The notes beneath the pieces are model-generated. The model was not told the origin of the DNA. It saw only the letters and a list, made by a program, of their open reading frames with translations, and did not search any database. The translations under genes were made by a program, and so were the position numbers. This document shows, piece after piece, positions 12,212 to 22,429 of a stretch of 31,797 nucleotides of DNA (position 1 is the first letter of the stretch; each line of letters begins with the position of its first letter). This DNA is from Desulfurobacterium atlanticum (lineage in GTDB: Bacteria; Aquificota; Aquificia; Desulfurobacteriales; Desulfurobacteriaceae): assembly GCF_900188395.1 (NCBI RefSeq), contig NZ_FZOB01000016.1, forward strand, positions 1-31,797, in the 5' to 3' direction.

Positions 12212-12601
12212 TTATCTTTCTTTTTCTCTGCATAGTTTACACTTTCCAAAGAAAGTGTGTTGTGCTCCTTCTATTTTATGTCCTGGTCCTTCCACACAGT
12301 TTCGTGCCATTTCACATATAGGGATGTCTATGTCAAAAATTTTACCACAGTAGTTACACACAAAGTGATGATGATATTCAGTTTTGAAGTCAAATCTGGA
12401 TTGTTTATTAATTATGATTTCTCCGATTTTTCCTTCTTCTACAAGTTCCTTCAGAACACGGTATACAGTTGCGAGGCTTAGTGTTTTAAGTTCTTTTTTC
12501 GCTCTCTCATATATCTGTTCAGCTGTAGGGTGGTCTTTTGACTCTTTAGCTATTCTGTATATAACCGTTTTCTGTCTGGTCTGTCTTTTGGTTTTTACCA
12601 T
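12212..12601 (-). CDS. Fur/PerR-family metalloregulator
   Basis: A DNA-binding repressor of 129 residues. It has an N-terminal winged helix (HPTAEQIYERAKKEL and LATVYRVLKELVEEG) and a C-terminal dimerisation domain with two structural zinc pairs, CNYC (82-85) and CKLC (121-124). The His-rich YHHHF (77-80) and the RFDF before it are the regulatory metal region. H24 in DHPTAEQIY corresponds to the N-terminal metal ligand of PerR, and the overall wording is closer to PerR than to Fur; the metal and signal are not decided. The ATG at 12601 has GAGGT six bases upstream. A good promoter and a Fur-box-like palindrome sit directly upstream, suggesting autoregulation. Confidence 0.9.
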   Translation of the reverse strand: MVKTKRQTRQKTVIYRIAKESKDHPTAEQIYERAKKELKTLSLATVYRVLKELVEEGKIGEIIINKQSRFDFKTEYHHHFVCNYCGKIFDIDIPICEMARNCVEGPGHKIEGAQHTFFGKCKLCREKER

Positions 12602-13590: not shown

Positions 13591-13619
13591 TTGACACTGT
13601 AGAAAAATTTTTCTAACAT
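13591..13619 (+). promoter_or_regulatory. Promoter of the multiheme cytochrome gene cluster
   Basis: A perfect -35 TTGACA (13591-13596), a 17-base spacer and TAACAT (13614-13619). The spacer holds AGAAAAATTTTTCT (13601-13614), a perfect 14-base palindrome that could be an operator. The first ribosome binding site of the cluster is about 20 bases beyond the predicted start. Confidence 0.65.
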
Positions 13620-13654
13620 ATCCTTTGGATGTTATGGTGGGATAGGAGGTTGAT

Positions 13655-13729
13655 GTGGAAAATAAAGAAGAGATAGCTTATAGAGGGGTTTACAAAAAAA
13701 CACTTTCTGATGAGGATGGGGAAAGATGA
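13655..13729 (+). CDS. 24-codon leader ORF of the cytochrome cluster
   Basis: Reads MENKEEIAYRGV then YKKTLSDEDGER from a GTG start. The case for translation is positional: a perfect AGGAGG (13644-13649) lies five bases before the GTG, and the TGA stop overlaps the ATG of the diheme lipoprotein gene (ATGA). It is charged, with no signal peptide, cysteine or membrane segment. It might be a small cytosolic protein, or a leader whose translation sets expression of the next gene. The ATG two bases earlier opens only a seven-codon frame. No known family is recognised. Confidence 0.5.
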   Translation: MENKEEIAYRGVYKKTLSDEDGER

Positions 13730-14118
13730 GAAAAGTACTGTTTTTATCACTGCTTGCTGGTTTTGTAGTTTCCTGTGCTGGCTCAAAAACGGAGCCTGTG
13801 AAAACGCAGCCTCAACCTGAAAAAAAGGTTGAGAAGGTTGAGAAAAAAGAGGAGGAACAAGGGAAACAACCTGAGAAGGTGGAAGAGATTAAGAAAGTTG
13901 CCCCTTCTGTAGAAGTGCCAGAGTCTAAGTTGGTTCTTTCTAAGTTTAAGCACAGCGACCACGTAAAAGTTATCAGGGAGTATGGCTGTATTCCGTGTCA
14001 TCATTTTAATGTAGAGATGCATGTTCCAGATGTTAATCGGGCACATCAGGTTTCTCAGAAATTTTTAAAGCCATCTGAAGCAAGTTGTAAAGTTTGTCAC
14101 ACAAAAGGAGTAGAGTAA
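13726..14118 (+). CDS. Diheme c-type cytochrome lipoprotein
   Basis: 130 residues. The N-terminus is a lipoprotein signal with lipobox VVSC (C17), so the mature protein should be tethered to a membrane by lipid and face the periplasm or outside. Residues 20-60 are a Lys/Glu/Pro-rich flexible stalk. Two heme c sites follow: CIPCH (88-92, with an additional His) and CKVCH (121-125). Histidines before the first site (KHSDH, 75-79) and HVPDVNRAH are likely distal ligands. The compact two-heme domain resembles c7/cytochrome-c3-like folds. No exact family is recognised. It is the first substantial gene of the cluster and overlaps the leader ORF by four bases. Confidence 0.85.
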   Translation: MRKVLFLSLLAGFVVSCAGSKTEPVKTQPQPEKKVEKVEKKEEEQGKQPEKVEEIKKVAPSVEVPESKLVLSKFKHSDHVKVIREYGCIPCHHFNVEMHVPDVNRAHQVSQKFLKPSEASCKVCHTKGVE

Positions 14119-14158
14119 TGTTTTTAAACAAAGAAACTTATAGTGTAGGGGGTCTGGA

Positions 14159-15271
14159 GTGAGAGCTTTTATAATGTTCTTCTTAGGATTGCTAACCCTC
14201 TGTGGAACAGCCCAGGCTAAGGTGAATATTGGAGATGACGGTTGTCTTTACTGTCACAGAATGAAAGGGCTGATGACTGTGGAAGTTGGTAAAGAGGGTG
14301 AAAAGAAGATTGTGGACTGCAGTATTAATGATGCCAAGTATATGCATTCGGTCCACAGAAACATTCACTGTACAGAATGTCATACGAAGGCTGTATCTTA
14401 TCCTCACGATAGGGCAAAAGTAAGAGAAGTAAACTGTGCTGCTAAATGTCACGTGATTGACCCTGCGACAAAGAGGCCGTTCTCACACGCCAAGGTATAT
14501 GAAACATGGAAGGAAAGTGCTCACGGTAAGAATTATGACAAAGCACCTGATATCTATCCTTCCTGCCAGTACTGTCATACGAACAGATTGCTTGTGGACA
14601 TTAAAAAGTTTGAAACACTTGAAGGAAGTTTTGACAGATGTTATGCGTGCCACAATGATGAGAAGTGGTCAGCAGACAGACTTGCTCACATGGCAAGTAG
14701 AATGGATATCCCGGATATAAGAAACGGCTATGTTTTCCAGTTTATTAAGACAAGAAGGGATGGATGGGAGATAGTAGAGCTTTGTGCAAGCTGTCATGAA
14801 AATGAAAAACTTATGGAGCAGGCAATAGAGATTGAAGGTATTCATAACAAATATAAAATCAAAAGAATTCTTGATGCTGTTCCAAGTTATCAAAAGACAA
14901 TGCACTCAAAAATGCTCTACCTTGATAGAAGTGATTTAAGGGCTGCTGACTGTCTTGACTGTCATACAAAGAAAGGAAGTGATTATCATGATATCTTCCC
15001 AAAAGAGGATCCGAGGGCTTCTACGAATCCGAAGCACATTCAGGTTACCTGTGGAAGATCTACAGAGTGTCATCCACTTGCTCCTAAATACAACATGAAA
15101 AACTTTGCTGAGACCAAATGGGTTCACGTTGATCCTGTTCTTGGGGAGAGTCTGGGACAGACTATTGTTTGGATTGTTGAAGAGGCGATGTTCTGGATTG
15201 CAGCTTGTGTGATTCTCTTTGCAGCAGTGGTGGTTATCCTTGACACCCTTAAATACATAAGGAGGCAGTAA
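14159..15271 (+). CDS. Membrane-anchored multiheme cytochrome c (7-8 hemes)
   Basis: 370 residues with an N-terminal signal peptide (ending near AQA, 18-20) and one C-terminal transmembrane helix (about 341-364), so the heme domain lies in the periplasm on a membrane anchor. Canonical CX2CH sites begin at C29, C71, C136, C161, C209 and C265. Two further motifs are unusual: CAAKCH at 93-98 (CX3CH) and CGRSTECH at 298-305 (CX5CH). FSHAKVYETWKESAHG (108-123) recalls the W-x-x-S-x-H element of cytochrome-c554-type multiheme proteins. The GTG start is favoured by AGGGGG six bases before; an internal ATG 15 bases on is also possible. It directly precedes the cytochrome b gene and probably carries electrons from it. 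Exact family unknown. Confidence 0.85.
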   Translation: MRAFIMFFLGLLTLCGTAQAKVNIGDDGCLYCHRMKGLMTVEVGKEGEKKIVDCSINDAKYMHSVHRNIHCTECHTKAVSYPHDRAKVREVNCAAKCHVIDPATKRPFSHAKVYETWKESAHGKNYDKAPDIYPSCQYCHTNRLLVDIKKFETLEGSFDRCYACHNDEKWSADRLAHMASRMDIPDIRNGYVFQFIKTRRDGWEIVELCASCHENEKLMEQAIEIEGIHNKYKIKRILDAVPSYQKTMHSKMLYLDRSDLRAADCLDCHTKKGSDYHDIFPKEDPRASTNPKHIQVTCGRSTECHPLAPKYNMKNFAETKWVHVDPVLGESLGQTIVWIVEEAMFWIAACVILFAAVVVILDTLKYIRRQ

Positions 15272-15273
15272 GC

Positions 15274-16200
15274 ATGTGGGGTTGGTTTAAAAGAAAGTTT
15301 AGAATGAGAGAAGATTATGAAAAGCTTATCATTGTTGACGGTGATAAGTTTTTCATAGAGAAGTGGACTGTTCTCCAGTGTTTGATGCACGTTGGTATTA
15401 TGACGATGATTATGCAGGTTATTACAGGTTTTCCACTTAAATACTGGAACACTCCGTGGGCGAAGTATATAGTTGATGCTCTTGGAGGAATAAACGGTCT
15501 TATGACCATTCACAGGATAGAAGGTGCAATAATGTTTTTTGACTTCCTGTTTGTGGTTTTCTACTGTATTATCTTTATGATTGTAAACAGAGATAGAGTT
15601 AAGAAGTATGGTATTTGGGATACCTATAGACTTCTTCCAGGTCCAACAGATATTGCTGCTGTTCAGTATTTTGCCTATCTCCTTGGTTTTAGAAAAGCAC
15701 CGCCGGATTATGATGAGTATATGTGGGTTGATAAGTTTGATTTTTACGCAGTTGGTTGGGGTATGATTGCCATTGGTATCACTGGATGGATTTTGTGGCT
15801 TCCTGAAGTGTTCTGCGGATTTTTTGGTTGGCCACCAGAAACGCTTCAGATAGCTCTAATTGCTCATGCTGATGAAGGTATGGTTGCTGTTGGTTGGATT
15901 GCTCTTGTTCACCTTTATATGGTTCACTATAGCCCTCACAAGTTTCCAATGGACTGGGTATGGCTTACAGGTATTTCTCCTGAGCTTGAGTGGATGGAGG
16001 AAAGGCCCCGCTCATGGAGAAGAATTATCAAAAGGACAGCCGAACATGAGCCAGAACTTCTTGAAAAGTATCCAGCTTTAAAAGAGAGATATGAGTTTGT
16101 TAAGGCTATAGAAAATCTTCCTAATGAAGAAATTGTCCTAAAGATTCATGAGTATGCGCATCACCTTCTTGAAAAGGAACTTAGCGAGGAGGCAGCATAA
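15274..16200 (+). CDS. Integral membrane cytochrome b subunit, di-heme type
   Basis: 308 residues with four main hydrophobic helices (about 34-52, 84-103, 157-175 and 200-218) and a soluble C-terminal tail of about 80 residues. Histidines at usual heme b positions are H39 (first helix), H80 (before the second) and H198, H213 and H218 around the fourth, a pattern like the cytochrome b561/formate dehydrogenase-gamma class that exchanges electrons with quinone. The ATG follows the previous stop within the same ribosome-binding segment (AAGGAGGCAG), and its TAA overlaps the next ATG by one base, so it is tightly coupled to both cytochrome c genes. Quinone oxidation or reduction is inferred from family and context. 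Confidence 0.83.
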   Translation: MWGWFKRKFRMREDYEKLIIVDGDKFFIEKWTVLQCLMHVGIMTMIMQVITGFPLKYWNTPWAKYIVDALGGINGLMTIHRIEGAIMFFDFLFVVFYCIIFMIVNRDRVKKYGIWDTYRLLPGPTDIAAVQYFAYLLGFRKAPPDYDEYMWVDKFDFYAVGWGMIAIGITGWILWLPEVFCGFFGWPPETLQIALIAHADEGMVAVGWIALVHLYMVHYSPHKFPMDWVWLTGISPELEWMEERPRSWRRIIKRTAEHEPELLEKYPALKERYEFVKAIENLPNEEIVLKIHEYAHHLLEKELSEEAA

Positions 16201-16943
16201 TGAGAAAACTTATAGTTACAATAGCGACTCTTTTTCCAATAACAGCTATGGCAGGAGGAGTTATTAGTCCACTGCTGAAAGGCACTCCTTCTCCAGATGT
16301 AGATGAGTGGAAAAAGAAGATAGAAGAGCAGCTTAAAGAAAAGCCGAAGTTTCCTGAGGAGAAAGAGTATCCTCAGCCGTTTCATGCACCTAACGGTTAT
16401 GAGTATCCTGTAAAAGATGTGTGTGTGGCATGTCACTCTTATGCTGCACATACAAAGGATGAGACACTTGCTCCCTTTTACAATGCTCATTCAACCTTTA
16501 TGAGCTGTACAACCTGCCACTATAAGGCTTCTGACATTTCATATGCGTGGGTTGAGATTGATGATGAGGGAAATGCAAAAATTGTGAAAGATACGCAAGA
16601 TATGTACGGTGTAAGATATGTTAAGGCTGGTGGTAGAGTTGCTTTATCAGGTATTGATAGTGATGCAAGGATTACACCAGTTGTGAACGGTAAACCTGTG
16701 GAGATTCCTCTAAAAGGCAACGAAGGAATACTTCACGATCCTGGTGCAGTTTCAATTATCTATAGTAATCTTGCTAAAGATCCGTTTAAGTGTGCAGACT
16801 GTCACAGTGCAAATCCACCTTTAAACCTTGTAGGTTTAGGTTTTTCTCAAGAAAGGATCCAGGATATAGAAAACAATGAAGTTGTAAAAGGCCTTTTACA
16901 GGAAGGAAAAATTTACTTCCCAAACTTCATCTGGAAGAGGTAA
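16200..16943 (+). CDS. Periplasmic triheme c-type cytochrome
   Basis: 247 residues with a cleavable signal peptide (MRKLIVTIATLFPITAMAG) and no other membrane helix. Three heme c motifs: CVACH (75-79), CTTCH (103-107) and CADCH (198-202). The roughly 90 residues between the second and third sites have no cysteine and look beta-rich, so the protein is a three-heme carrier with an inserted domain. A Pro/Lys-rich stretch (28-60) precedes the first heme. Its start codon overlaps the cytochrome b stop. The position after the b subunit suggests it docks on the complex as an electron-transfer subunit. Family not recognised. Confidence 0.82.
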   Translation: MRKLIVTIATLFPITAMAGGVISPLLKGTPSPDVDEWKKKIEEQLKEKPKFPEEKEYPQPFHAPNGYEYPVKDVCVACHSYAAHTKDETLAPFYNAHSTFMSCTTCHYKASDISYAWVEIDDEGNAKIVKDTQDMYGVRYVKAGGRVALSGIDSDARITPVVNGKPVEIPLKGNEGILHDPGAVSIIYSNLAKDPFKCADCHSANPPLNLVGLGFSQERIQDIENNEVVKGLLQEGKIYFPNFIWKR

Positions 16944-16947
16944 GGCG

Positions 16948-17754
16948 ATGAGATTTTTAATGTTAAGTTTGCTTATGATGGTTTCTCTTATCTCTTCGGC
17001 ATTTGCCGGAGAGATAAAGGGGAATTTCAAATTTCCTTCAGATATTGCTGTTAAGAAAGGTAATATTTTCGTGGTGGATGGCTTAAATAACAGGGTTGTT
17101 AAGCTTAATGAAGATGGAGATGTTGTTTCTACTTTTGCTGTGAAGAAACCTTACGGTATTTATGTTTCAGATGAAAAAATTTACCTTTCAACCACAGATG
17201 GAAATATTTTGATTCTTGATTTTTCCGGAAATGTTCTTAAAAAGTTTAATGTTGGTGGAAGGCTTGTTGACCTTGTCGTTCTTGGTGGGAAAATATGGGT
17301 TGTTGATGCTTCTAATGATTGTGTAAAAATTATCTCTGAAGATGATGGAAATCTGGTTAAAATTGTTGGTGAGAAGGGCTCAACACCTGGAGAGTTTGTT
17401 TCTCCTTTCATGATAGCTACTGACGGTGATGAAGTTTACGTTGTTGACTCTATCAACGCACGGGTTCAGGTATTTAACAAAAAAGGTGAGTTTGAAAGAA
17501 CCTTTGGAGAGTTTGGTATTGAGGAGGGAGATCTTTTCAGGCCTAAAGGAATAGCTGTATTTAACGGTGAGGTTGCAGTTTCTGATGTGATTACCGGGGC
17601 GGTTCAGCTTTTCAACCCCTATGGAGCGTTTGATGGAGTTGTTGCAAAAGGATTACAGTATCCTATGGCTATAGCTTATGAGAAAGGTGTAATTTATGTG
17701 CTTGAGCCTCTTAAAAACAAGATACTTACATTCAAAGTACAAGGGGTTAAATAA
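16948..17754 (+). CDS. Secreted NHL-repeat beta-propeller protein
   Basis: 268 residues with a clear signal peptide ending AFA (about 19-21). The rest is a run of about six NHL/YVTN-type blades, visible as repeated units of the form P-x-x-I-A-V then I-x-V-V-D then N-x-R-V-x-x-F (for example FPSDIAVKKGNIFVVDGLNN, and later INARVQVFNKKGEFERTFGE). There is no heme motif. NHL propellers are scaffolds and occur beside multiheme cytochromes in other electron-transfer clusters, so a structural or docking role is the simplest reading. It is joined by overlap or a few bases to both neighbours. Confidence 0.85.
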   Translation: MRFLMLSLLMMVSLISSAFAGEIKGNFKFPSDIAVKKGNIFVVDGLNNRVVKLNEDGDVVSTFAVKKPYGIYVSDEKIYLSTTDGNILILDFSGNVLKKFNVGGRLVDLVVLGGKIWVVDASNDCVKIISEDDGNLVKIVGEKGSTPGEFVSPFMIATDGDEVYVVDSINARVQVFNKKGEFERTFGEFGIEEGDLFRPKGIAVFNGEVAVSDVITGAVQLFNPYGAFDGVVAKGLQYPMAIAYEKGVIYVLEPLKNKILTFKVQGVK

Positions 17755-20279
17755 TGAGGAAGACCTTAGCTATACTTCTATCAGTGGTTGCTATACCAAC
17801 AGTTTCTCATGCGAAGAAACTTGAGAAAAGCATGAAGAAGGACTGTCTGGTGTGTCACCAAAACTGGCTGTTAGAAGCTAAGGTAAGCTCTCCTAAGCTT
17901 CTTACTGATAAAAAGATTCTTGCTGGTGACACGATAATGTGTTTAACCTGTCATGATGGTTCTATGGCAGATGACAGGTTAACTTTCCTTAACTTTGATA
18001 AACATTCTCACCCGGTTGATGTGAAAGTTCCGGATAATATGGATATTCCTGATAAGTATCCTCTTAATGACGGGAAGCTATTCTGCGGTACCTGTCACAC
18101 GCCTCACTCTGAGGTTGGCAGTCAGGATAAACTTGACTACACGTTTATGAGATTTAAGAACACAGATTCTTCTATGTGTATAGATTGTCACAGGAACAAT
18201 ACAGGACATGGTAATCACCCTGTGCTTGAAGAAACAGCCGAGAAAATGTCTCCTGAGATTGTTGCAAAGATTAAAGAGCTTAACGGTAAAGTGGGAGAAA
18301 ATAACGAAGTTACATGTCAATCATGTCATGCTGCTCATAAAGGTCAGGGAGAACATGCTTTAATAGTCTCTAATAAAAACTCTCAACTTTGTGCAGTATG
18401 TCATATGGAAGAAGTTAATTCCCCTGAACATAAAAATCCTATGTCTCATCCGATAGCTGTTTCTGTTGAGGAAGCTGGTGTTAATCCTGAAAGAATAAAC
18501 TTAAAGCTTAACGGAAGCAATATTGAGTGTTATTCATGTCATAAAGTTCACCACTCTCAAGAGGAAAAGCTACTGGCAGAGCAGAAAAAGCAGCTTTGTG
18601 TGGCGTGTCACACTTCTGAAGCCACTGTGCTTCACAGCAAGCACGCCTTTGAAGATAAAGATGCCTGTCTTGAATGTCACACCGCACATAAAGCTGTTGG
18701 TCCTAACTTGTGGGGTAGAGAGCTTTCAGACAAAGCGGAAAGTTATGCTGTCTTTCTTGAGGCTGGAGAGAAAGATAGAATGTGTATCTCCTGTCACTAT
18801 CCTGGTGGTGAAGCGCCGGATATGGGAACAATTTCTCACCCGACAAATGTTAAAAGTAGCGTGAAATCGCTACCTCTTGATGATGGAAAGGTAGCATGTA
18901 TGTCATGTCATGATCCTCACAGATGGAGTGTTGTTGATAATCCTGTATCAAAAGCTGATGCGAGCTTCTTGAGAGTTCCAGAAAGAGAGCTTTGTGGAAG
19001 ATGTCACGCAGGTAAGCTTGAGTGTGCTCAAGGTGTTCATGCTAATATTAAAAATAGAAACGTTCTTGGGGAAACATCCGATAATGCAGGTGTTTGTGCT
19101 GCGTGTCACGTTCCGCACAGGGCTACAGGTAAGTATCTTAAAGGTGTTGAAGGTGCTGAAGGAAAAGATGCTGTTACAGCATTTTGTATGGCATGTCATG
19201 GAGAAGGTGGCGTAGCAAAAGCTAAAGTTATGTCAGGTAAGTTTGCTGATCACCCTGTTGATGTGATGACAGAAGATGGAAAGCTTGTAACATGTGCAAG
19301 TTGTCATAATCCTCATAATGCTAAGAAGTTTGCTCTTGCTGCACCTGTTAAAGGAGATTCTGCTTTATGCCTTGAGTGCCATAAAGGAAAGAGTGTGAAA
19401 GAGACAGCTCATTATCTTGTTGATAAAGATGAAACTATAATGGAGCATGGTCAGTGTTACGCATGTCATAAGCCTCACAATCCTGAAGGTCCTACACTCT
19501 GGAGCAGGGCTCTTGGAGAAGGTAAGACAGTTAATGAGAAACAGTGTACATCATGTCATGCAAAAGGTAAGATGGCAGCTGATTTAACAACAGGTAAAAT
19601 AACCCATCCACTTGGAGGAGATGTTGTTTCAAATGACCTTCCTGCAATCAACCAGCAAACAGGAACACCGGGAATGGGAGTTCTTGATTGCGGCAGCTGT
19701 CATGACCCTCACGGTGATGCAAAAGCTTCTCCGTTTCTCAGGCTTTCCAATAAAGGCAGTCAGTTGTGTATCTCCTGTCACAAAGAAGAAGTTGCTATTA
19801 AAGGTACAGGACACGATATTAATGGTCAGATGTGTGCTGCGTGCCACGTGCCTCACCAGGCTAAAAGTGCATTCTTGTGGAAGATGGAGCTTAAGAACTT
19901 TACATATCCAACTGGAGAACCTGTTGATAGAGCGTCAACATACTGCCTTACCTGTCACAATGAAAGCGGCATAGCTTCAGATGCAACAGTTAAGTATTAT
20001 TTCCATCCGTATAAAGACTTTGATCTTGTTGCTTCTGATAGACCTGGCAGAAAAGGTAAGTGGCCGCTTTACGCTGAAGATGGTTCAGAAGTTGAAAGAG
20101 GTGGTGCTATAGCCTGTGAAACATGTCACGATGCTCACATTCATGGAAAGACATACTTCTTAAGAAATAAGACAGTAGCTGGAAGTACATGTGTTGACTG
20201 TCACGGAGATGAGGCTGTGATAAGATATATGTGGTATCATACAGATAAGGTTCGTCAGCCTCATCCAAGCTACAAATAA
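17754..20279 (+). CDS. 24-heme c-type cytochrome made of repeated four-heme modules
   Basis: 841 residues with a signal peptide (cleavage near SHA, 18-20) and no other membrane helix or lipobox. I count 24 CX2CH motifs, with first cysteines at 31, 63, 111, 142, 188, 213, 259, 282, 305, 344, 382, 414, 448, 478, 514, 539, 568, 598, 646, 672, 694, 731, 788 and 813. Many read CxxCHxPH, the doubled-CXXCH signature. From heme 10 on a unit recurs every 120-134 residues (344, 478, 598, 731): a lone CxxCH, an HP pair, CxSCHxPH, LCxxCH, CxACHxPH and a hydrophobic LW or YL. The density (one heme per 35 residues) suits a long periplasmic or extracellular heme wire. The ATG overlaps the NHL stop by one base. 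Confidence 0.93.
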   Translation: MRKTLAILLSVVAIPTVSHAKKLEKSMKKDCLVCHQNWLLEAKVSSPKLLTDKKILAGDTIMCLTCHDGSMADDRLTFLNFDKHSHPVDVKVPDNMDIPDKYPLNDGKLFCGTCHTPHSEVGSQDKLDYTFMRFKNTDSSMCIDCHRNNTGHGNHPVLEETAEKMSPEIVAKIKELNGKVGENNEVTCQSCHAAHKGQGEHALIVSNKNSQLCAVCHMEEVNSPEHKNPMSHPIAVSVEEAGVNPERINLKLNGSNIECYSCHKVHHSQEEKLLAEQKKQLCVACHTSEATVLHSKHAFEDKDACLECHTAHKAVGPNLWGRELSDKAESYAVFLEAGEKDRMCISCHYPGGEAPDMGTISHPTNVKSSVKSLPLDDGKVACMSCHDPHRWSVVDNPVSKADASFLRVPERELCGRCHAGKLECAQGVHANIKNRNVLGETSDNAGVCAACHVPHRATGKYLKGVEGAEGKDAVTAFCMACHGEGGVAKAKVMSGKFADHPVDVMTEDGKLVTCASCHNPHNAKKFALAAPVKGDSALCLECHKGKSVKETAHYLVDKDETIMEHGQCYACHKPHNPEGPTLWSRALGEGKTVNEKQCTSCHAKGKMAADLTTGKITHPLGGDVVSNDLPAINQQTGTPGMGVLDCGSCHDPHGDAKASPFLRLSNKGSQLCISCHKEEVAIKGTGHDINGQMCAACHVPHQAKSAFLWKMELKNFTYPTGEPVDRASTYCLTCHNESGIASDATVKYYFHPYKDFDLVASDRPGRKGKWPLYAEDGSEVERGGAIACETCHDAHIHGKTYFLRNKTVAGSTCVDCHGDEAVIRYMWYHTDKVRQPHPSYK

Positions 20280-20302
20280 TTGGTAAGAGGAGGAAACCTC
20301 AG

Positions 20303-20464
20303 ATGGCAAAAGAGATGACAAGTAAAGAGTTTGAAAGATATGCATGGAAAAAGGCATGGATAGTTCTTGCAGCTACATTTATAATACTGTTTGGACCATG
20401 GATTATGGTGTGGGTTGTTAAGTTTATCCATTGGTATGCACAGTCTTTCTTTATGTGGCTTTAA
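20303..20464 (+). CDS. 53-residue single-span membrane protein of the cytochrome cluster
   Basis: Begins MAKEMTSKEF and contains one hydrophobic, tryptophan-rich helix (about 19-39) after a positively charged segment, so the N-terminus is likely cytosolic. The short tail FIHWYAQSFFMWL is aromatic. The start is supported by AGAGGAGGAAAC upstream and by its place 23 bases after the 24-heme gene. It has no cysteine; H43 could be a ligand. Small one-helix subunits are common in respiratory complexes, so an accessory subunit of the b/c complex is plausible. No family recognised. Confidence 0.7.
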   Translation: MAKEMTSKEFERYAWKKAWIVLAATFIILFGPWIMVWVVKFIHWYAQSFFMWL

Positions 20465-20490
20465 TAGTATTGGAAAATTGGAGGTGAAGG

Positions 20491-20667
20491 ATGGGACATA
20501 CTCACGATCCTGTAGTTGAAGAAAAGATGCAGAAGATTAAGTATTTTAAGGACTGGATTTCTGCTTTTCAGCTTTTAGTTGCTCTTTCTGCTTTGATTAT
20601 CACATGTATTTATTGTCTTGGTAATATATGGCATCTTTATATGATCTTTTTCGGTGGTGGACATTAA
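20491..20667 (+). CDS. 58-residue His-ended single-span membrane protein of the cytochrome cluster
   Basis: Starts MGHTHDPVVEEKMQKIKYFK and ends FFGGGH. One hydrophobic helix (about 23-45) contains two cysteines (C39, C42) in CIYC. Histidines lie at both ends (H3, H5, H49, H58). The ribosome binding site GGAGG is eight bases before the ATG. It follows the 53-residue gene by 26 bases, and the next gene, the solute-binding protein, begins seven bases after its stop. A small subunit or assembly factor of the cytochrome system is a reasonable guess; no family is recognised. Confidence 0.68.
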   Translation: MGHTHDPVVEEKMQKIKYFKDWISAFQLLVALSALIITCIYCLGNIWHLYMIFFGGGH

Positions 20668-20674
20668 AGGAATT

Positions 20675-22429
20675 ATGAGTTTTAACAGGGGTAAAAGGGT
20701 TCTTATAGGGATTCTTTTACCCCTTTCTCTTTTTTTCTGCTTTTCCTGTGAAGAGCCTGTTGAAACCTTTTCATCTGATAACACGATTCTTGGAAAAACT
20801 GTTAATCTTGAAAATGTAAAGTTTGAAAAAGGAATATACGGGGGAACTCTTTACGATTCAACATCTTCAGATCCGAAAACTTTTAATCCTGTTTTTGCCC
20901 ATGAAACATCTTCAACGGTAGCTGTTGCCGGTATTTTTGAAGGGTTGACAGATGTTGATATTAAAACGTTGAAGCCTGCCGGCAGGCTTGCTGTTTCCTG
21001 GGAGTTTAAGGACAACGGAACAACCTGGGTTTTTCATTTAAGAAAAGATGTTAGATGGTCTGACGGTAAACCATTTACAGCAGATGATGTTGTTTTTACC
21101 TATAATAAAATCTACTTCAACCCTGAATATCCAAACTCTGTTAAAGATATGTTTGAGATAGACGGAAAACTTCCGAAGATTAAGAAATTAGATACATACA
21201 CGGTTGAAATAAAACTTCCTCAGCCATTTGCTCCACTTTTATACTCTCTTTCGGCGGATATTTTCCCAGAGCATCTGTTAAGGGAAATTGTTGAGAGTGG
21301 AAAGTTTAAAACTTTCTGGACGGTGGCAACTTCACCTGAAAAACTTGTGGGAACAGGACCCTATAAACTTGTAAAGTATGTTAACGGTCAGTATCTTGTT
21401 TATGAAAAAAATCCTTTTTATTATGAAAGTGATGGTTACGGAAGCAAACTACCTTATGTTGAGAAAAAGGTTATTTATATAGTTCCTCAGAAAGATACTG
21501 CCCTTTTAAAGTTTAAAAATAAAGAGCTGGATTTCTATGGACTTTCAGGAGATGATTTTCCATCTTTAAAGAAAGGGGAGAAAAACGGTAACTACACAAT
21601 TTACAATCTTGGTCCTTCCTTAACTGCCGATTTTATCTGTTTTAATCAAAAAAGAGAAGTTCTTCCTGAGTGGAAGTTGAAACTGTTTTCAAATGCAACT
21701 TTTAGAAGGGCTATCTCTCATGCAGTTGATAGAAAGGGTATAGTTTTAACAGTTTATAACGGTCTTGGATTTCCTGTTTACTATCCTGTAACAAAAGCCA
21801 ATAAGCTTTACTATGACCCTGAAGCTCCAAAATTTCCGTATGATTTGGAAAAAGCAAAAGAGCTTCTTGAGTCTATAGGGCTTAAAGACAGAAATGGTGA
21901 TGGCTGGCTTGAAACGCCGGACGGTCATAAGGTTGAGTTTTCTCTTTTAACCAATTCAAATAATCCAAATAGAGTTCAGATAGGTTCAATTTTAAAATTT
22001 GATTTAAAGAGGCTTGGAATAGATGTTCATTTTCAGCCTCTTGATTTTAATAATCTTGTTGAGAAACTTCTTAATACCCACGATTTTGATGCTGTTATTA
22101 TCGGTCTGACAGGTTCCATAGATCCTAACGGCGGGAAGAATGTGTGGAAAAGTAGCGGGCAGCTTCATTTGTGGAATCCCAATCAGAAGAGACCTGCAAC
22201 GCAGTGGGAAGCTGAAATAGATAGGTTGTTTGATGAAGGAGTTAAAGAGCTTGATTTTAAAAAGAGAGTGGAAATTTACAAAAGAGCTTACCGTATAATT
22301 GCTAAAGAACAGCCTGTTATCTATATTGCTGCTCCTCTTGTATTTGAGGCTGTTAGAAATAGAGTGAAAAATTATTTTCCAACAATCTGGGGGACATACA
22401 AACCCACACGAATTTTTATAAAAGAGTGA
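20675..22429 (+). CDS. Peptide/nickel-type ABC solute-binding lipoprotein (SBP_bac_5), orphan
   Basis: 584 residues of the extracellular family 5 binding-protein fold: GGTLYDSTSSDPKTFNP near the mature N-terminus, WEFKDNGTTWVFHLRKDVRW, FTADDVVFTYNKI and VGTGPYKLVKY are the family's classic signatures. A hydrophobic signal ends in CFSC, an imperfect lipobox, so it is probably a lipoprotein. These proteins bind oligopeptides, nickel chelates or other small ligands; specificity cannot be read here. No permease or ATPase genes are near, which is unusual for a transporter component. The ATG at 20675 follows AAAGGA, with short spacing. It may be co-transcribed with the cytochromes. Its TGA stop forms part of the next promoter. 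Confidence 0.9.
   Translation: MSFNRGKRVLIGILLPLSLFFCFSCEEPVETFSSDNTILGKTVNLENVKFEKGIYGGTLYDSTSSDPKTFNPVFAHETSSTVAVAGIFEGLTDVDIKTLKPAGRLAVSWEFKDNGTTWVFHLRKDVRWSDGKPFTADDVVFTYNKIYFNPEYPNSVKDMFEIDGKLPKIKKLDTYTVEIKLPQPFAPLLYSLSADIFPEHLLREIVESGKFKTFWTVATSPEKLVGTGPYKLVKYVNGQYLVYEKNPFYYESDGYGSKLPYVEKKVIYIVPQKDTALLKFKNKELDFYGLSGDDFPSLKKGEKNGNYTIYNLGPSLTADFICFNQKREVLPEWKLKLFSNATFRRAISHAVDRKGIVLTVYNGLGFPVYYPVTKANKLYYDPEAPKFPYDLEKAKELLESIGLKDRNGDGWLETPDGHKVEFSLLTNSNNPNRVQIGSILKFDLKRLGIDVHFQPLDFNNLVEKLLNTHDFDAVIIGLTGSIDPNGGKNVWKSSGQLHLWNPNQKRPATQWEAEIDRLFDEGVKELDFKKRVEIYKRAYRIIAKEQPVIYIAAPLVFEAVRNRVKNYFPTIWGTYKPTRIFIKE

Follow-up and report, generated by a model that had tools for sequence, protein, structure and literature searches.

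In the genome of Desulfurobacterium atlanticum, a hot-vent bacterium of the family Desulfurobacteriaceae, one operon probably specifies the inner-membrane and periplasmic part of an electron-export chain, but not the exit through the outer membrane that normally goes with it. It occupies positions 13591-20667 of the window, by which we mean the whole 31,797-nucleotide stretch analyzed, contig C16 of a 1.74-Mb genome (G000). The gene content, heme motifs, conservation and promoter of the operon, as well as the presence or absence of a porin, were read directly from the DNA.

The operon consists of a promoter followed by eight clear, tightly spaced plus-strand genes, with intergenic gaps of 40, 2, -1, 4, -1, 23 and 26 bp in order. 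A promoter scan by itself performed at chance level (25 found, 21.3 expected); the sigma-70-type promoter at 13591-13619 on the plus strand (TTGACA-N17-TAACAT) keeps both hexamers and the 17-bp spacer length across the window, L022, L023 and L043, the four genomes of the genus. The original prediction of a consensus-like promoter ahead of same-strand genes with overlaps or short gaps was therefore borne out, and its gene identities and coordinates were correct. Of its count of at least nine genes, eight are clear, the ninth candidate being a predicted 24-codon leader ORF (VENKEEIAYRGVYKKTLSDEDGER; 13655-13729, plus strand) that overlaps the lipoprotein start at ATGA. Similar counterparts of this leader occur in L022 and L043, and one in L023 was judged by eye.

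At the downstream end, a hairpin of 17 pairs (20687-20724, plus strand), which resembles an intrinsic terminator by pattern match only, may close the operon. It sits inside the 5' end of the following coding sequence (20675-22429), that of an SBP_bac_5 lipoprotein, and attenuation is possible. Two genes upstream of the operon, a putative Fur/PerR-like regulator, assigned from its sequence, is encoded on the minus strand (12212-12601), and its position is kept in congeners.

The first gene (13726-14118; all eight are on the plus strand) encodes a diheme lipoprotein with the lipobox VVSC followed by a K/E/P-rich linker. It is followed by an octaheme c cytochrome (14159-15271) with a signal peptide and a C-terminal transmembrane helix, which carries six CXXCH motifs plus two atypical ones, a CX3CH and a CX5CH, that do not vary among relatives. 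The octaheme shares 63% identity with that of L030 and 67% with that of L033; its profile matched no PDB sequence, and its predicted structure (pLDDT 48.5) was too poor for docking or fold comparison. The third gene (15274-16200) encodes a cytochrome b of the Ni_hydr_CYTB (b561) family, scoring 39.5 bits against PF01292, above the gathering cut-off of 30.1. Its histidines H39, H80, H198 and H213 are invariant and suit two b hemes, and the spacing of the pairs H39-H80 and H198-H213 resembles the ligand pattern of FdnI. The cytochrome b profile likewise matched no PDB sequence, and no relatives were detected in the plasmid and viral collections.

A periplasmic triheme c cytochrome with three CXXCH motifs (16200-16943) comes next; its profile gave one weak match among PDB sequences (E 0.006). 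The exported NHL beta-propeller (16948-17754) passes PF01436 and contains no heme motif. The largest product is a 24-heme c cytochrome (17754-20279) built of doubled-CXXCH repeats, with a signal peptide and no other transmembrane helix; when its residues were shuffled, CXXCH occurred 0.17 times on average and three times at most. Two predicted single-helix membrane proteins complete the operon, one of 53 aa with invariant H43 and W44 (20303-20464) and one of 58 aa ending in GGH (20491-20667). A matching ORF for the former was found in 17 clusters retrieved from relatives, and most sister genera have an ORF similar to the latter in the corresponding position. The CXXCH counts of the lipoprotein (2), membrane cytochrome (6), triheme (3) and large cytochrome (24) total 35, and the two atypical sites of the membrane cytochrome bring the number to 37. 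These results agree with the anticipated 36-37 heme c sites and two probable heme b, and the profile searches, both above Pfam cut-offs, confirmed the NHL propeller and the b subunit.

We next consider distribution, surveyed across 136 Aquificota genomes. The octaheme was found in 21 of these, all within the window's order, and the cytochrome b in 21 of 22 Desulfurobacteriaceae genomes. The order octaheme, cytochrome b, triheme, NHL, large cytochrome and mini-protein was kept in all retrieved loci long enough to show it, and this block is core to the family. In L023 the triheme is also present, overlapped there by another frame. In sister genera the large cytochrome has either 24 or 28 hemes, as against 13 in the outgroup family f2. 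Among congeners, the octaheme, cytochrome b, triheme and 24-heme proteins are about 75-93% identical and free of stops. The only near-complete family member lacking the octaheme and cytochrome b is G007 (98% complete), in which the porin is also absent and no PF09699 match was obtained at E 0.001; multiheme systems have apparently been lost in this genome.

The outer-membrane half of the system distinguishes the window's genus from its relatives. In six of the seven genera, the operon is headed by a porin of about 420 aa and two 7-heme cytochromes, one of them a lipoprotein. The porin was predicted as a 22-strand barrel (pLDDT 78), and the model matched outer-membrane barrels in Foldseek. Pcc porins of 18-22 strands are reported in the accessible text of an earlier survey (PMC4245776); the predicted strand number lies within this range, supporting the electron-export reading. 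Neither the window operon nor any of the four genomes of its genus yielded a porin in single-sequence and profile searches to E = 1, a search that would miss a strongly diverged or unrelated replacement, and the window operon has no periplasmic multiheme cytochrome gene adjoining a porin. This absence is not a contig break, because the sequence continues into conserved genes upstream of the operon in the window, L022 and L023.

Remnants or counterparts of the two 7-heme proteins are nevertheless present in the window's genus. Its lipoprotein has two hemes versus seven in sister genera and aligns with the N-terminal two-heme part (residues 22-94) of their lipoprotein, and a shorter orthologue of the second 7-heme protein lies away from the operon (G000:C1:29057-29833). 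In a rooted tree of the octaheme, cytochrome b, triheme and NHL proteins, the window's genus was sister to the remaining family members. Porin and 7-heme genes were not detected in the outgroup f2 either, so both a loss of the porin in the window's genus and a later gain elsewhere are compatible with these data.

We infer a quinol donor, an outward direction of flow, the order of the carriers and every endpoint as follows. The diheme b subunit would oxidize menaquinol and pass electrons to the octaheme, anchored beside it by the C-terminal helix; the two one-helix proteins are likely to belong to this complex as small subunits. Electrons would then cross the periplasm by way of the triheme and 24-heme proteins, and the NHL propeller may act as an assembly or docking factor. 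In the six sister genera, electrons would cross the outer membrane through the porin holding the multiheme cytochromes from the operon head, an exit suggested by the gene arrangement. The window's genus has no porin and only the lipid-anchored diheme protein, so its chain would have to end in the periplasm or leave the cell otherwise.

Several observations support export. The b subunit scores above its family cut-off with four invariant histidines, the octaheme carries a C-terminal helix, synteny is kept wherever the locus occurs, and the porin and 7-heme genes lie directly upstream in six genera. Against it, relatives are known to use sulfur compounds and nitrate for growth, the open-access literature describes none growing on iron or electrodes, and NrfH/NapC-like tetrahemes encoded beside two HAO-like octahemes give the genome other routes from quinol to periplasmic reductases. 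The original prediction of a quinone-linked complex with a periplasmic wire appears to hold in part: a b561-type subunit beside an anchored octaheme and a long periplasmic multiheme protein are consistent with it, and the electron-export component is strengthened by the porin and the two additional cytochromes in the operon of sister genera, whereas the external acceptor is weakened by the missing conduit in the window's genus.

Other cytochrome loci in the genome bear on where the electrons might go. On contig C3, L070 (4761-11744) contains a 5-heme cytochrome gene by NHL-type genes, together with genes for a PpiC-like protein and 6-heme and 8-heme cytochromes; on C12, a 5-heme cytochrome gene adjoins NHL-type genes in L074 (7051-9359). 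Each of the four genomes of the window's genus encodes the 5-heme proteins of both loci, and the 18 other family genomes do not. Their CHTMHN motif prompted a comparison with solved cytochrome filaments, which gave no match, and we do not call them nanowires. Three HAO-like octahemes are encoded in L071 (5111-6670), L075 (4262-6299, minus strand) and L076 (4069-6157, minus strand), the latter two judged from sequence; all are candidate reductases for nitrite or another N-oxide, and two of the three genes adjoin NrfH/NapC-like tetraheme genes. An OTR-like octaheme with a C-terminal helix (L069, 6187-7794, minus strand) is divergent from a NiFe hydrogenase operon, and a 12-heme cytochrome gene (L077, 4083-5231) stands alone downstream of two-component regulator genes.

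The strongest alternative, which we regard as a serious contender at somewhat below an even chance, is that electrons go no further than the periplasm in the window's genus, without extracellular transfer. The 24-heme protein would then store electrons or deliver them to soluble reductases or polysulfide. The lack of the porin in all four congeners is consistent with this, and the three HAO-like octahemes, the OTR-like octaheme and a 3-heme c7-type protein could accept the electrons; moreover, thiosulfate and sulfur reduction in D. thermolithotrophum proceeds without an identified respiratory enzyme (PMC12724263). However, the tetraheme genes adjoining two of the HAO-like octahemes indicate that other quinol-oxidation routes to periplasmic reductases exist, sister genera retain the same inner half together with the conduit, and the window's genus has secreted multiheme/NHL loci of its own. 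We slightly favor another outer-membrane route over a periplasmic end. Such an exit might be provided by the two genus-only loci, which encode NHL proteins and cytochromes of 5 to 8 hemes, and we suggest tentatively, and with more doubt than confidence, that the inner half was kept while the C3/C12 loci replaced the porin conduit.

Inward flow, in which a donor outside the cell or in the periplasm would supply the electrons that reduce quinone, seems unlikely. Quinone enzymes of the CbcL/MtrH/MtoC type have been implicated in both directions (PMC6295460), but hydrogenases are thought to reduce menaquinone already during growth on H2 (PMC12724263), and the open-access literature mentions no external donor. 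It is highly improbable that the operon is decaying after the loss of an export system, as the missing porin and the reduced lipoprotein might suggest, given that the remaining genes are intact, without stops and well conserved among congeners, and that the promoter is kept across the genus.

Nearly every member of the family retains this operon, and the accessible literature gives no settled route for thiosulfate and sulfur reduction in the family (PMC12724263, PMC5441870). A genus without the porin beside six that bear it offers a natural comparison of whether the inner b/c module needs a conduit. The same comparison may serve to probe what the NHL propeller and the pair of one-helix proteins do, all of them conserved in the operon. 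If replacement of the conduit by the C3/C12 loci is true, the inner and outer halves of such electron chains would be exchangeable modules in nature.

Among known systems, the quinol oxidases CbcBA and CbcL of Geobacter come close. In CbcBA, a b-type subunit is paired with a multiheme c cytochrome of the membrane. CbcL fuses a b-type HydC/FdnI-like subunit with a membrane multiheme c cytochrome (PMC6295460). The window shows the same pairing of a b-type HydC/FdnI-like subunit with a membrane multiheme c cytochrome, a likeness that for CbcBA is one of architecture only. In contrast to CbcL, a single fused polypeptide with nine hemes, the window has separate subunits with eight c hemes; the c and b domains that share one polypeptide in CbcL, MtrH and MtoC are encoded here by two genes. 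The triheme protein scored 24.8 bits against TIGR03153, below the cut-off of 134.2, which places it outside the NrfH/NapC/CymA quinol dehydrogenases. Aquificota are not named in the accessible main text of the CbcL/MtrH/MtoC survey (PMC6295460) or of a large survey of outer-membrane cytochromes. The accessible text of the T. ammonificans genome paper treats NirA and SQR and describes no multiheme chain (PMC5441870), and three c-type cytochromes responded to H2 in the proteome of D. thermolithotrophum HR11 published in 2025 (PMC12724263).

The closest known systems are the Pcc clusters described by Shi et al. in 2014, whose accessible text includes the octahemes Dester_0351 of D. thermolithotrophum and Theam_0871 of T. 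ammonificans (PMC4245776). The octahemes of L030 and L033 are 79% identical, the value printed there for Theam_0871 and Dester_0351, so we identify L033 and L030 as the published loci. The window octaheme is an orthologue of these proteins, with six CX2CH and two CX3-5CH motifs and a membrane anchor. The original prediction did not recognize this exact gene set, but the octaheme and porin-cytochrome cluster had thus been published; the set is not new, and its downstream genes may figure in the same study. According to the available 2014 text, the octaheme itself weakly resembles cytochrome b; in the window the octaheme has no cytochrome b Pfam match, and the b subunit is the next gene. Unlike the clusters as published in that text, the window's genus has no porin, a two-heme lipoprotein and the other 7-heme gene elsewhere, a gap that may already have been reported outside the open-licence literature. 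In the Pcc and Mtr conduits (OmbB-OmaB-OmcB and MtrCAB), a porin adjoins multiheme cytochromes, an arrangement not found in the window's genus and shared by the operon of the six sister genera.
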